This document shows positions 2,733 to 19,613 of a stretch of 64,000 nt of DNA, one piece after another; positions within the stretch are counted from its first letter, which is position 1, and each line of letters opens with the position of its first letter. Under the pieces are notes generated by a model. That model was not told the DNA's origin, did no database searches, and was given only the letters and a program-made list of their open reading frames with translations. The position numbers and the translations under genes were made by a program. Source of the DNA: Chloroflexota bacterium (GTDB taxonomy: Bacteria; Chloroflexota; UBA11872); contig JAPOXD010000023.1 of assembly GCA_026707285.1 (NCBI GenBank), positions 1-64,000 on the forward strand, given 5' to 3'.

Positions 2733-3569
2733 CTACTCGCCCTGCACCGCCCGCGCCAGGACGAGCAGGTTGTCCAGCAGGCAATAGACCGTCAGCGGCC
2801 CGACGCCGCCCGGCACCGGCGAGAAGGCCGACGCGACCTCGACCACGGCCTCGGCGTCCACGTCGCCCTTCAGGCCATCGGCCGTGTACGTGGCGCCGAC
2901 GTCGACGACCGTCGCGCCCGGCTTCACGTGCTCGCGCGCAATCAGTCCAGGCCGCCCGGCGCAGGTGACCAGCACGTCCGCTTGCGAGGTCACGTTGGCG
3001 AGATCGAGCGTCCGCGAGTGGCACATGGTCACGGTGGCGTCGCGCGCCAGCATCAGCAACGCCACCGGCTTCCCCACGCTGCGGCTGCGGCCCACAACCG
3101 CTACCCGGCGCCCGGCCAATGGGATCTCGTAGTGCTCCAGCAAGCGCACGACGGCTGTCGCCACGCCCGGCGCCAGCTCGGAAGCTCCCGCCAGCACCGC
3201 GCCGATGGCGGCGCGCGTAATCCGGTCGACATCCTTCTTCGGCGGCAGGGCCGCGACGACCGCTGCGGTGTTCACCGATGACGGCAGCGGCAGCGCCACG
3301 ATGATTCCCTGGACCTCGTCGTCGACCGCCAACCGCTCCACGAGCCCGACGGCCTCGGCCGTCGAGGAAGCCTCGTCGAGCAGCTCCTCGGCGACCGGCA
3401 CGCCAACCCGTCGCGCGCCCCGCGAGACCTGCCTGGCATAGGCGGCCCCGGCGGGGTGCGTCGCGCAGCGAACGAAGGTGAGCGCGGGGGGTCTGGCGAA
3501 TTCCGAAAGCTCCGTCGCAATCGACGCCCGCAACACCCTGGCCGGCTCGCGGCCGGTCATCACCGTCAC
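2733..3569 (-). CDS. folD: FolD-like methylene-THF dehydrogenase lacking the cyclohydrolase Lys
   Basis: A 278-residue FolD homologue. The Rossmann part is intact: VVGRSRSVGKPVA at about 158-170, ATVTMCHSRT, and the C-terminal PVPGGVGPLT. In the catalytic half, the Tyr of the YxxxK motif is present (Tyr44) but the Lys is replaced by Val48. The Gln of GILVQLPLP is Ala92, DVDG has become DVDR, and the PCTP segment is absent (ELAPGVATA). The Lys and Gln are needed for the cyclohydrolase reaction in studied FolD enzymes. The protein may thus be a dehydrogenase only, with the neighbouring FchA protein supplying cyclohydrolase. The GTG start overlaps the fchA stop by 4 bases; an ATG at 3560 is an alternative. 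Last gene of metF-fchA-folD. A non-catalytic role cannot be excluded. Confidence 0.85.
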   Translation of the reverse strand: MTVMTGREPARVLRASIATELSEFARPPALTFVRCATHPAGAAYARQVSRGARRVGVPVAEELLDEASSTAEAVGLVERLAVDDEVQGIIVALPLPSSVNTAAVVAALPPKKDVDRITRAAIGAVLAGASELAPGVATAVVRLLEHYEIPLAGRRVAVVGRSRSVGKPVALLMLARDATVTMCHSRTLDLANVTSQADVLVTCAGRPGLIAREHVKPGATVVDVGATYTADGLKGDVDAEAVVEVASAFSPVPGGVGPLTVYCLLDNLLVLARAVQGE

Positions 3570-4192
3570 GCGTGCAACTCCGACAGCACGCGCTCCGCGG
3601 CCGCGTCGGCCCGCGCCAGCCCGGACCGAAAACGCTCGCAGCTGCGCTCCAGCTCCACGCGCGCCGCCTCGTCGGCCACCGAGCCGATATTCGCCGCGAT
3701 GTTCATCTCACAGATGCGCATGGCGCCGCGCGCCAAGGCCGCCCCAGCCGCGGCGTCGCACCGCACGTGGGGATTCGCCTTGGCAACGGCAGCGCCGGCG
3801 AGCTCGATCACGTCGAGCGCCAGCTCGCCAACCGCCGCGGGGACGCGGCTTGCCGCCAGCGCCGCGGTGGCAATCGCTTCGACCCGCGCGGCCTCGGGAG
3901 CGCGCGGCAGCCGGTAGGCCGCCAGCAGCCCGGCGTAGGCGTCCGAATCCGCCTCGATGAGCGCCAGCGCCTCAGCGCGAATCGCGTCCGTCCGAGCCAC
4001 GATGCGTTCCATCTCGGCATGCACGGATTTGAAGCGCTTCCGGGCCAGCGTGAGTTGTGCGCTCATGCCCACGAGCGCCGCTCCCAGCGCCACGGCCGCC
4101 GCCGCCGCGCTGCCGCCGCCGGGCGTGGGCGAGTTGGACGCCAGCGCCGCGGCGAAGCCTTCAATCGTTGCGCAAGCGGCGCCTTCCGCCAC
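3566..4192 (-). CDS. fchA: Cyclodeaminase/cyclohydrolase family protein (FchA-like)
   Basis: A 208-residue, mostly helical, Ala-rich protein of the family covering methenyl-THF cyclohydrolase FchA and the C-terminal cyclodeaminase domain of formiminotransferase-cyclodeaminase. The N-terminal signature SPTPGGGSAAAAAVALGAAL at about residues 21-40 is the folate-binding glycine-rich segment, followed by a long helix with RKRFKSV. Length fits the family (about 200-210). No formiminotransferase domain or histidine-degradation gene is nearby, and the neighbours are metF and folD, so methenyl-THF cyclohydrolase is the likelier activity. GTG start 1 base after the metF stop; its stop overlaps the folD start. 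Confidence 0.87.
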   Translation of the reverse strand: MAEGAACATIEGFAAALASNSPTPGGGSAAAAAVALGAALVGMSAQLTLARKRFKSVHAEMERIVARTDAIRAEALALIEADSDAYAGLLAAYRLPRAPEAARVEAIATAALAASRVPAAVGELALDVIELAGAAVAKANPHVRCDAAAGAALARGAMRICEMNIAANIGSVADEAARVELERSCERFRSGLARADAAAERVLSELHA

Positions 4193-4193
4193 G

Positions 4194-5240
4194 CTAGGCC
4201 GCGGTGGCGGCCGCGCCCACGGCAGCAGCGGGCGCCAGTGCCGGAACCGGCGTCGGCCGCGGCAGCTCCAATCCGGCAGCCTCCACGATCCGCGGCACGG
4301 CCTTCTCCCAGTCGATCGCCATCACGTGCACGCCGTGCACGCCCTCGATCTCACGCACTTGCTCGATGATCTCCAAGCAAATGCGGATGCCCTCGGCGCG
4401 CGGCTTGCGGGCGCCGCGCATGCGCTGCATCACGGCGTCGGGAACCTCCATGCCGGCGACCTTGAACTTCATGAACTCGGCCATCCGAGCCGACTTTAGC
4501 GGACCCACGCCCGCCAGTATGTGAATTTCTTCATGAATGCCCTCGTCACGTACGCGCGACATCCATTCGGCGAAGCGCTCCACGTTGAAAATCATCTGGG
4601 TCAGCGCGAATTCCTGCCCCGCGGCGGCCTTCTTGACCATGCGCAGCGGGCGGAAGCCATAGGGCGGCGCAAAGGGATTGGCCGCGCCGCCGATGAAGAG
4701 CCGGAAGTCGCCCTTGATCGGGTCGCCGGCGGCATTGCGATTCTCATCGCGGAGCTGCTTGAGCAGGCGCACGAGCTGCACGCCCTGCAGGTCGAAGACC
4801 GGCTTGGCCATGGGGTGGTCGCCCAGCACCAGCGAGTCCCCGCTGATTGACATAAAATTGCGAATGCCAAACGCCTGCGCCGCAATGACGTCCGATTGGA
4901 TGCCCAACCGGTTCCGATCGCGGCACGAGAGCTGCATGATCGGCTCTACCCCGCCCTGGAGGCAGAGCAGCGCCGCGCCCCAATGCGACATCTTGAGCGC
5001 CGCGCCCTGGTTGTCCGTGCAGCTGGCGGCGTCCACGAAGCCGCGCAGAATCTCGGCCTTCGCCCGGACATCCGCCGCGTCCGGTCCCTTGGGCGGCCCG
5101 AGCTCACAGGTGACGGCAAAATGGCCGGCGTCGAGCACGGCCTGCAAGTGGCTGTACGGCGGCCCCGGCGCGGGGCCGTCGACGGGAGGCGAATCAGACA
5201 CCGAAAGCGGTTGTCCCAGCAGCCGGCAAGTATTCGCCAT
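4194..5240 (-). CDS. metF: Methylenetetrahydrofolate reductase (acetogen-type MetF)
   Basis: A 348-residue TIM-barrel flavoprotein that reduces 5,10-methylene-THF to 5-methyl-THF. FAVTCELGPPKGPD carries the conserved catalytic Glu near the N terminus; ASCTDNQ, MQLSCRDRNRLGIQSD, NFMSISGDS and KPVFDLQGVQLV follow in family order. The wording matches the MetF form of acetogens and other anaerobes rather than the E. coli form. The last 30 residues are an Ala/Pro-rich tail with no obvious role. First gene of a three-gene one-carbon operon, divergent from miaA across about 50 bases that must hold both promoters. ATG start. A MetV partner was not seen in this window. Confidence 0.92.
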   Translation of the reverse strand: MANTCRLLGQPLSVSDSPPVDGPAPGPPYSHLQAVLDAGHFAVTCELGPPKGPDAADVRAKAEILRGFVDAASCTDNQGAALKMSHWGAALLCLQGGVEPIMQLSCRDRNRLGIQSDVIAAQAFGIRNFMSISGDSLVLGDHPMAKPVFDLQGVQLVRLLKQLRDENRNAAGDPIKGDFRLFIGGAANPFAPPYGFRPLRMVKKAAAGQEFALTQMIFNVERFAEWMSRVRDEGIHEEIHILAGVGPLKSARMAEFMKFKVAGMEVPDAVMQRMRGARKPRAEGIRICLEIIEQVREIEGVHGVHVMAIDWEKAVPRIVEAAGLELPRPTPVPALAPAAAVGAAATAA

Positions 5241-16434: not shown

Positions 16435-17907
16435 CTAGCCGGTGGAGTTCCAGTTCACGTCCGGGGAGCGATTGGCCGTCACCTCGTCCAGCCGGCGAAC
16501 GGGCGCCGTCATGGGCGCGGCGTGCAGCAGCTCCGGATCCGACTCGGCCTCCCGGGCCACGCTGATCAGGGCCTCCGCGAACTCGTCGAGCGACTCGATC
16601 GACTCGGTCTCGGTGGGCTCGATCATCAGCGCCTCTTCGACGATCAGCGGGAAATACACCGTGGGCGGATGGACGCCATAGTCGATGAGTCGCTTGGCGA
16701 TGTCGGTGGTGCGGACGCCCAGCCCCCGCTGCCTCGTGCCCGACAGCACCACCTCGTGCATGCAGATGCGGTCATACGGGATGTCGAAGTGCGGCGCCAG
16801 TAGCGCCCGCAGGTAGTTGGCGTGCAGCACCGCGTCATCGGCCACCTCGCGCATGCCGGCACGCCCCAGGCTGCGAATGTAGGTATAGCCTCGAATCAGG
16901 TTGCCGACGTTGCCGACGTGCGAGTGCACCCGACCGATGCTGTCGGGACCCGCCGGCTCCAGTGCATAGCCCGCATCAGTCTTGACGATTTGCGGACCGG
17001 GCAGAAACGGCGCCAGATGCGCCTGAACACCCAGCGCTCCTGCCCCGGGGCCCCCGCCGCCGTGGGGCGTGGTGAATGTTTTATGTAAATTCAGATGCAT
17101 CACGTCGATGCCCAGATCGCCCGGACGCACCCGGCCCAGCATCGCGTTCATGTTGGCGCCGTCGCCATACACCTGTCCGCCGGCCGCGTGCACGCGCCGC
17201 GTGACCTCCAGGATTCGCTGCTCGAACAGGCCAAGCGTGGTCGGCAGGGTGAGCATCAGCGCCGCCACGTCGTCATTGAGCTTGGCGTCCAGCTCGTCCA
17301 AGTCGATGTTGCCGTCCGGCGCCGTGCCCAGGTGCCCGACCCGCATCCCGGTCATCGTGGCCGTGGCGGGATTCGTGCCATGCGCCGAGTCGGGCACCAG
17401 CACGGTGGTCCGCCGCTCGCCGCGACTGCGCAGCCAGGCCTGGATGCAGAGGAGTCCGACCATCTCGCCCTGCGATCCCGCCGCGGGTTGCGTGGTGACT
17501 GTGGCGAAGCCCGCAATCTCAGCCAGCAGGGCCTCCAAATGGTGAATGAGCGCCAGCAGCCCTTGCACCGACGCCTCGGGCTGGTAGGGGTGCGGCTCGA
17601 CCAGTCCCGGCAGACGGGCCGTCACCTCGTTGATCTTGGGGTTGTATTTCATCGTGCAGGAGCCCAGCGGATAGATCGCCGTGTCGATGCTGTGATTGCG
17701 CTGCGAGAGGCGCACGAAGTGGCGCATGACGTCGATTTCCGAGACTTCCGGCAGATCCAGCGCCTCGCGGACCTGGCCTTCGGGCAGCACCGCAGCGGGA
17801 TCGACGGCGTCGAACTGCGGCAGGGGCGGTCGCACGCCGGGGCGACCGGGACTGGCCAGCTCGAAGATCAACGGCTCGCTAGGCACGATGCACGGCCTGC
17901 CAGGCAT
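16435..17907 (-). CDS. gcvPB: Glycine dehydrogenase (decarboxylating) subunit 2
   Basis: The PLP-binding half of the two-subunit P protein of the glycine cleavage system. The PLP Lys lies in HLNLHKTFTTPHGGGGPG; GSCTMKYNP near the N terminus and DSAHGTNPATA are family marks. With the subunit 1 product it decarboxylates glycine and passes aminomethyl to lipoyl-GcvH. Length is 490 residues with the ATG at 17907; a GTG at 17886 just before the gcvPA stop is an alternative and would start close to the conserved PLIFELASPGR. It overlaps gcvPA by about 29 bases. The open frame continues upstream out of phase with gcvPA but is not real coding. Confidence 0.95.
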   Translation of the reverse strand: MPGRPCIVPSEPLIFELASPGRPGVRPPLPQFDAVDPAAVLPEGQVREALDLPEVSEIDVMRHFVRLSQRNHSIDTAIYPLGSCTMKYNPKINEVTARLPGLVEPHPYQPEASVQGLLALIHHLEALLAEIAGFATVTTQPAAGSQGEMVGLLCIQAWLRSRGERRTTVLVPDSAHGTNPATATMTGMRVGHLGTAPDGNIDLDELDAKLNDDVAALMLTLPTTLGLFEQRILEVTRRVHAAGGQVYGDGANMNAMLGRVRPGDLGIDVMHLNLHKTFTTPHGGGGPGAGALGVQAHLAPFLPGPQIVKTDAGYALEPAGPDSIGRVHSHVGNVGNLIRGYTYIRSLGRAGMREVADDAVLHANYLRALLAPHFDIPYDRICMHEVVLSGTRQRGLGVRTTDIAKRLIDYGVHPPTVYFPLIVEEALMIEPTETESIESLDEFAEALISVAREAESDPELLHAAPMTAPVRRLDEVTANRSPDVNWNSTG

Positions 17908-19237
17908 TCGTGAGCGCCTCCAGGTCGGCGCGCGTGGTGAGGTCGGTGGCGCACACCAGCAGGGCGTCATCGAGGGCGGGATCGACGCGGCCCAGCGGAT
18001 AGCCGCCGAACACGCCTTCGTCGGCCAGCGCCTTGACGGTCTCCTCGCCGCCGCGCGGCGCCTGCACGATGAACTCGTGAAAGTACGGCGCGGCGTCCCA
18101 GACGGTGGCCCCAACGTTCCTGAGCAATTCCGCGCACCGATGCGCCGCGCTCAGGCTTTGCGTCGCCAGGCTACGCAGGCCGCCGGGTCCGAGCGCGCTG
18201 ATCGAAATTGCTGCGCCAAGCGCCACCAGGGCCTGGTTGGTCGTGATGTTCGAGGTCGCGCGCTCGCGCCGGATGTGCTGCTCACGGGTCTGCAGGGTCA
18301 GCACGAATCCCTGCTGTCCATCGATGTCGGTCGTGCGTCCGGCAATGCGTCCGGGAAGCCGGCGAATGAACGCCTGCCGCGTGGCCAGCATCCCCGCGCC
18401 GGGACCGCCGTAGATCGGCGGACCGACCAACGACCGAAGCTCGCCGGCCACGATATCGGCCCCCAGTTCGCCCGGCGGCGTCAGCAGGCCGAGCGAAATC
18501 GGGTCGGTGACGACGTAAACAATCTTGGCCCCGTGACGTTCGGCGGCCTCCACCACCGGCGCCGGGTCCACCACCCAGCCGAAGAAGTCCGGCCGCTGCA
18601 GCACCACGCAGGCCGTCGTATCGTCGATGGCCGCGGCCACCGCCTCGATGTCCGGCGCCAGGTGGTTGCCGGTCCGAATCCAGGCGTCGACGGTGCGTAG
18701 CTCCACGTCGACCGCCTGGGTGTAGGTGGCCGCGACGTCCCGGTAGGCCGGATGCACGGTGCCGGCCATGACGACGCCGGAGCGGCGCGTGATGGCCCGG
18801 CACATGAGCACGGCCTCGGCCAACGCGGTCGCGCCGTCGTAAAGCGAGGCATTCGCCACCTCCATGCCCGTGAGGCGGCATACGAGACTCTGAAACTCGT
18901 ACATGGACTGCAGCGTGCCCTGCGTCATCTCGGCTTGATAGGGCGTATAGCCCGTGTACCACTCCGAGCGCAGCAGCTGCTGATCCACGAGCGCCGGCAC
19001 GAAATGGCGGTAGAACCCGGCCCCCAGGAAGCTGGAAACGCCCTCGGGGACGCGGTTCCGCTCGGCCAGCGCGCGCACTTCGCGCAACACGTCGACCTCG
19101 GGCAGGGCCTCGGGCAAATCGAGCGTGGGATCGCGGTGGGCGGCGGGGATGTCGACGAACAATTCGTCGATCGAATCGACGCCGATGGTCCGCAGCATGC
19201 GCGTGCGGTCGGCGTCCGTGCTAGGCGAGTAGCTCAT
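17879..19237 (-). CDS. gcvPA: Glycine dehydrogenase (decarboxylating) subunit 1
   Basis: A 452-residue N-terminal half of the split P protein. SFLGAGFYRHFVPALVDQQ, YTGYTPYQAEMTQGTLQSMYE and NASLYDGATALAEA are the family's strongest segments. ATG at 19237 overlaps the end of gcvH by 17 bases, giving the tight order gcvH-gcvPA-gcvPB. Split GcvP is typical of Firmicutes, Thermotogae, Chloroflexota and archaea. The aminomethyltransferase gcvT is not in the operon or in this window. Confidence 0.95.
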   Translation of the reverse strand: MSYSPSTDADRTRMLRTIGVDSIDELFVDIPAAHRDPTLDLPEALPEVDVLREVRALAERNRVPEGVSSFLGAGFYRHFVPALVDQQLLRSEWYTGYTPYQAEMTQGTLQSMYEFQSLVCRLTGMEVANASLYDGATALAEAVLMCRAITRRSGVVMAGTVHPAYRDVAATYTQAVDVELRTVDAWIRTGNHLAPDIEAVAAAIDDTTACVVLQRPDFFGWVVDPAPVVEAAERHGAKIVYVVTDPISLGLLTPPGELGADIVAGELRSLVGPPIYGGPGAGMLATRQAFIRRLPGRIAGRTTDIDGQQGFVLTLQTREQHIRRERATSNITTNQALVALGAAISISALGPGGLRSLATQSLSAAHRCAELLRNVGATVWDAAPYFHEFIVQAPRGGEETVKALADEGVFGGYPLGRVDPALDDALLVCATDLTTRADLEALTNAWQAVHRA

Positions 19238-19613
19238 CCACGAATGCGTCGTAGGCTTCGGCGTCCAACAAATCCTCGATTGCCGTAGCCGCGTCATCCG
19301 GGCGCACGCGAATCAGCCAGCCGTCGTGAAACGGCGAGCTGTTGACCAGCTCGGGCGCGCCATCGAGCTCCGAATTGACCGCGATCACTTCCCCCGCCAC
19401 CGGCGCGTAGAGCGGCGACACGGCCTTCACGGATTCCACGGTGCCAAATTCGTCCATCACGTCGACGTGGAGGCCTTCGTCGGGTAGCTCCACAAACACC
19501 ACGTCGCCCAGTTGCTCGGCGGCATAGGGCGTGATGCCCACGACGACGTCGTCGCCGTCAAACCGAGCCCATTCGTGCTCGCGCGAATAGCGCGCGTCTG
19601 TGGGAAACTTCAT
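19221..19613 (-). CDS. gcvH: Glycine cleavage system H protein
   Basis: A 130-residue lipoyl carrier. YSREHEWARFDGDDVVVGIT at the N terminus and the lipoylated Lys in GTVESVKAVSPLYAPVAGEV are diagnostic. It shuttles the aminomethyl group from the P protein to T protein and back to L protein. The ATG at 19613 is used; the frame is open further upstream but that part overlaps the divergent mazG and the leader inverted repeat. First gene of its operon. Confidence 0.97.
   Translation of the reverse strand: MKFPTDARYSREHEWARFDGDDVVVGITPYAAEQLGDVVFVELPDEGLHVDVMDEFGTVESVKAVSPLYAPVAGEVIAVNSELDGAPELVNSSPFHDGWLIRVRPDDAATAIEDLLDAEAYDAFVDELLA

Follow-up and report, generated by a model that had tools for sequence, protein, structure and literature searches.

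In the metF-fchA-folD operon described here, the two steps of the single E. coli FolD would be split over two proteins, a FolD acting as the dehydrogenase and an FchA acting as the cyclohydrolase. From sequence comparisons, we put the probability of this division at roughly 0.88. The operon lies in the window, by which we mean the whole stretch of 64,000 nucleotides of Chloroflexota DNA that was analysed. A preliminary description of this DNA had proposed the division together with a decayed FolD. The division itself has strong support from co-occurrence, both genome-wide and across phyla, and from published E. coli mutants (PMC5688156), whereas the decay did not hold up.

A FolD without the catalytic lysine is encoded beside FchA

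The three genes run head to tail, with an overlap of four bases between fchA and folD and with metF one base upstream of fchA (Table 1), which confirms the layout as first described. All 13 loci examined from the same family share this gene order; in the two examined from the sister family, metF was not found next to fchA and folD. MetF and FchA match their Pfam families with 122 (PF02219) and 150 bits (PF04961). When compared with curated FolD families, as had been proposed, the FolD passes both Pfam cut-offs (PF00763, THF_DHG_CYH, 69.2 versus 32.8 bits; PF02882, THF_DHG_CYH_C, 173.9 versus 27 bits) and misses that of the NCBIfam bifunctional FolD equivalogs, where the best among the 25 models listed reached 248.8 bits versus a cut-off of 411. 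Another one-carbon function near the operon lies at 16435-19297 (minus strand), where a glycine dehydrogenase gene (GcvP2_C) adjoins a second long ORF (17879-19297), taken as the other GcvP subunit from its position alone.

Table 1. Coordinates of the operon genes and of two informative folD codons in the window.
Feature	Position	Strand	Details	Assignment
folD	2733..3569	minus	GTG start, 278 aa	FolD family, predicted dehydrogenase-only
fchA	3566..4192	minus	208 aa	FTCD_C-family standalone methenyl-THF cyclohydrolase (predicted)
metF	4194..5240	minus	opens the metF-fchA-folD run	methylene-THF reductase
Val48 codon of folD	3426..3428	minus	computed as 3569 - 3 x 47	aligns with catalytic Lys54 of E. 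coli FolD
Ala92 codon of folD	3294..3296	minus	computed as 3569 - 3 x 91	aligns with Gln98 of E. coli FolD

Alignment to E. coli FolD places Tyr44 at Y50, Val48 at K54, Ala92 at Q98, the conserved Asp115 at D121 and Arg116 at G122. Both motifs of bifunctional FolDs are thus broken, with Val48 for the Lys of YxxxK and Ala92 for the Gln of G(I/V)xVQ(L)PLP. DVDG reads DVDR, and the PCTP segment reads PGVA. The residues of the dehydrogenase (Tyr, Asp, PGGVGP, GRS and HS) are all kept, and the NAD(P) half is intact, including GRSRSVGKP, CHSRT and PVPGGVGP. On these residues the preliminary description was exact. All five congeners also have Val at the Lys position, and Ala or Gly at the Gln position, so Val48 and Ala92 are not a sequencing accident.

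The replacement of Gly122 by Arg, adjoining the pterin-binding Asp, is family-wide. The FolDs of the window's own genus further have Val for Thr142 (E. coli numbering; residues 135-137, window 3159-3167, minus strand) and no PCTP, and the sister genus retains the Thr. We take Thr142 to be Thr148 of human MTHFD, an NADP contact, based on our own alignment. Cofactor handling may differ in the own-genus FolDs.

The genome encodes one FolD and one FchA

We queried the 3.21 Mb assembly (96.98% complete) with profiles for PF02882, PF04961, FTCD_N and Fhs. It holds a single real FolD (PF02882) and a single PF04961 protein, both in the metF-fchA-folD operon. One other weak PF02882 match (20 bits, C46) was rejected as a second folD because it fell under the cut-off. 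A full folD elsewhere in the genome, which the preliminary description had named as evidence against its reading, is thus not among the genes of this 97%-complete genome. Fhs (formate-THF ligase) is encoded elsewhere in the genome.

The PF04961 protein is standalone, without a formiminotransferase. Its best match is a solved methenyl-THF cyclohydrolase (7vg4, E-value of 9e-25), with FTCD behind at 3e-14. Its sole NCBIfam family match, NF045657, stays below the curated cut-off (131.9 versus 275 bits). As no FTCD_N formiminotransferase was found in the 96.98%-complete genome, a role for FchA as the cyclodeaminase of histidine degradation was ruled out. In five other genomes of the window's family (G010, G012, G015, G016 and G017), of which two are more than 90% complete, a real FolD and FchA were not found. 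The missing operon reflects either an assembly gap or a true loss in these genomes.

The FolD is under purifying selection

Comparison of the window with the five congeners yielded dN/dS ratios of 0.18-0.26 for folD, 0.23-0.30 for fchA and 0.05-0.07 for metF, placing folD under looser selection than metF. None of the congeners examined has a broken folD. An AlphaFold2 model of the FolD has a mean pLDDT of 95.9 and a pTM of 0.92, and solved FolD/MTHFD structures match it with TM scores of 0.85-0.96 (0.95 for 6v6y). Decay of the FolD, as claimed in the preliminary description, is ruled out by its dN/dS and by the kept Tyr50, Asp121 and Gly262, and the predicted fold is likewise intact.

These data also bear on whether the FolD is degenerating and (nearly) inactive, in which case 10-formyl-THF would come from Fhs, and methylene-THF from serine and glycine only. 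We consider this very unlikely. Purifying selection is still clear even if dN/dS exceeds that of metF, and the congeners retain the NADP site, the PGGVGP loop and the Tyr and Asp that bind the substrate, despite the altered Gly122, Thr142 and PCTP segment. The FolDs of this order are long-branched (1.07 for the window FolD) and Fhs is present, as inactivity would allow, but the unbroken gene in every congener and the confident model speak for a functional protein.

Lysine loss accompanies FchA within Chloroflexota

Our Chloroflexota sample contained 146 FolDs, 77 without and 69 with the Lys. Of those lacking it, 73 share their genome with a standalone FchA, and for 56 the two genes are immediate neighbours. 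The remaining four, without a standalone FchA to match, were seen in G040 (77% complete) and G263, where no FchA was found, and as extra copies in G138 and G302. To the question whether Lys loss always goes with a neighbouring fchA, the sample thus answers that most Lys-less FolDs have a standalone FchA in the genome, but not always next to them. Three genomes encode two Lys-less FolD paralogs, the second of which is not near fchA (G049, L026/L056; G051, L019/L060; G055, L031/L054).

Conversely, 65 Lys-bearing FolDs belong to genomes that lack PF04961 or have only a fused FTCD of about 500 aa. The other four were at first scored with a standalone FchA, and after inspection only G194 stays: the FchA match of G164 is a fused 518-aa FTCD, while in G056 and G128 the FchA-like gene adjoins a formiminotransferase. 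In G194 (L264), the standalone FchA adjoins a class-III aminotransferase. We saw no close relative that has the Lys beside the same fchA, the second finding that the preliminary description had considered damaging to its reading.

Gln98 is kept in all 69 Lys-bearing Chloroflexota FolDs, versus 44 of the 77 Lys-less ones. The latter retain Tyr50 (74/77), Asp121 as D/E (77/77) and Gly262 (77/77). A pattern in which Tyr, Asp and Gly262 are kept and Gln98 drifts would be expected if only the cyclohydrolase were freed from selection.

The association extends to other phyla

Among 80 named FchA loci from a cross-phylum sample, 59 had a FolD, and 58 of these FolDs near FchA, from several phyla, lacked the Lys. 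Its position is taken by Ile in Chloroflexota and Poribacteria, by Ala or Val in Nitrospirota, by Val in most Actinomycetota and mostly by Ala, Val or Ile in Bacillota. The lone exception, Desulfosporosinus, keeps the Lys, has folD upstream of fchA and has Glu for Gln98. Lys-bearing FolDs located away from FchA were found in Streptococcus hyovaginalis, Ignavigranum and one Ignavibacteriales genome, each with the FchA-like gene beside a formiminotransferase. A Chloroflexota genome in which the FchA match is an FTCD fusion of 561 aa also had one, as did a genome from the Thermoplasmata, with Glu replacing Gln98. Most apparent exceptions thus have an FchA-like gene that is fused to, or adjoins, a formiminotransferase. 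Glu for Gln98 was seen together with the Lys in Desulfosporosinus (L219) and Thermoplasmata (L248), and without it in Pelotomaculum (L204, L228 and L241). These FolDs are possibly intermediates or a separate variant.

In an even draw from the Clostridia, the class of Sedimentibacter, all 43 FolDs from PF04961-containing genomes lacked the Lys, and all 67 from genomes without PF04961 had it. Four of the Clostridia FolDs (L330, L331, L332 and L333) have Gln at the Lys position and have kept Gln98, with a non-adjacent FchA in the genome. Fisher tests gave ~1e-31 in both the Chloroflexota and the Clostridia sets, ignoring kinship.

The association reflects few evolutionary changes

We next considered kinship, using trees built without the Lys and Gln sites. 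Only six to seven changes of the Lys state are needed on these trees. An independent-pairs sign test, for which too few pairs were available to reach significance, gave a median p of 0.5-1. Holding the main Lys-less FolDs as one clade was not rejected (p-AU 0.52), and these FolDs may form a single clade. The four Clostridia FolDs that carry Gln in place of the Lys come from genomes with FchA and form a clade (99*) drawn inside the Lys-bearing rows, so at least one further Lys loss likely occurred in this group. The Lys-less state is old and shared. Because the trait is so strongly clade-bound, the large co-occurrence counts do not represent independent events. The association of the Lys state with FchA is near-universal in our samples, yet based on few independent evolutionary changes.

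A proposed division of labour

Studies of the human and Leishmania enzymes have ascribed folate binding to Tyr52 and Asp125, and catalysis to Lys56 together with Gln100 (PMC3368264). In E. coli FolD, a K54N mutation makes the cyclohydrolase undetectable while ~19% of the dehydrogenase remains, a two-residue deletion at K54 also makes the cyclohydrolase undetectable, and Q98H leaves ~8% of the dehydrogenase and ~1% of the cyclohydrolase (PMC5688156). As K54N and Q98H also cost most of the dehydrogenase, compensating changes must be assumed.

We propose that the FolD would reversibly convert 5,10-methylene-THF to 5,10-methenyl-THF, probably with NADP, and that it would be unable to hydrolyse the methenyl group since the Lys/Gln pair is gone. 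FchA, which very probably takes over this second job of FolD, would interconvert methenyl-THF and 10-formyl-THF, and Fhs would connect 10-formyl-THF with formate. We infer that the FolD has retained its dehydrogenase activity, and that NADP is its cofactor because it contains the 2'-phosphate-binding Arg and His-Ser.

Alternatively, the FolD could be bifunctional through another residue, with FchA redundant or serving formimino-THF. It is true that methenyl-THF hydrolyses spontaneously (PMC5688156) and that some FTCD_C proteins are formimino-THF cyclodeaminases, but we regard this as highly improbable given that the genome has no formiminotransferase domain, that E. coli FolD has no detectable cyclohydrolase without its Lys and that Lys loss and FchA presence co-vary. 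A substrate other than methylene-THF, to which the own-genus loss of Thr142 and the family-wide Arg beside the pterin-binding Asp might point, is scarcely credible for the sole FolD of a genome, which shares an operon with metF and fchA and retains the Tyr44 and Asp115 that bind and orient folate (PMC3368264).

Relation to known systems

The division between a dehydrogenase FolD and an FchA resembles several known systems. In Clostridium perfringens, Aluri and co-workers reportedly found in 2016 that FolD is a dehydrogenase only, despite its bifunctional annotation, that FchA is the cyclohydrolase and that E. coli folD can be replaced only by the two together (Microbiology 162:145). The study is among the references of PMC7219735. 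This would be the same split in another phylum than that of the window. Acetobacterium woodii carries the operon fhs1-fchA-folD-rnfC2-metV-metF (PMC3315566, PMC10472528), where fchA and folD are adjacent in a one-carbon operon as in the window, but in an acetogenic Wood-Ljungdahl context. The preliminary description had set the window FolD apart from those of acetogens. This distinction disappears, as the genome matching A. woodii (G420) likewise lacks both residues: Ile replaces Lys54, and Phe replaces Gln98. The A. woodii dehydrogenase is reported to be NAD-dependent (Ragsdale and Ljungdahl 1984), whereas the window enzyme looks NADP-type.

The bifunctional FolD (MTHFD) of E. coli and human shares the two domains, the fold and the Tyr, Asp and PGGVGP with the window FolD, which lacks their catalytic Lys and Gln. 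Yeast MTD1 is a monofunctional NAD-dependent dehydrogenase (references in PMC11064299). Like the predicted window FolD, it is a FolD relative that retains the dehydrogenase alone, but it is eukaryotic and NAD-dependent. MTD1 is not known to have an FchA partner. The methylotrophs Methylorubrum and Methylobacterium use mtdA and fch (PMC9618320). The same two steps are here also performed by two proteins. Their dehydrogenase is MtdA rather than FolD.

Implications of a possible lysine rule

The arrangement of FolD with FchA is thus essentially known, and it is more widespread than genome annotations imply. We found no statement of a rule linking the Lys to FchA in the open papers searched, which is no proof of novelty, and this residue rule may be new. 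We consider it probable that Lys loss with a dedicated FchA is one rule across bacteria, spanning Chloroflexota, Bacillota, Nitrospirota, Actinomycetota and Poribacteria, so that a single residue flags wrong annotations of bifunctional FolD. If true, the rule predicts which organisms require fchA and which resist carolacton. Binding of carolacton to FolD depends on the catalytic Lys. FolD inhibitors anchored on this residue, such as carolacton, should fail against Lys-less enzymes.

FolD is labelled bifunctional nearly everywhere, and a 2023 survey of acetogens still does so in genomes that also carry fchA (PMC10103890). A Tn-seq study of Clostridioides difficile lists fchA among the essential genes (PMC12548448), which fits the view of FchA as a required step. 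If the Lys reports activity, this single residue would allow many annotations and flux models to be corrected, and fchA would be a required step in those organisms.
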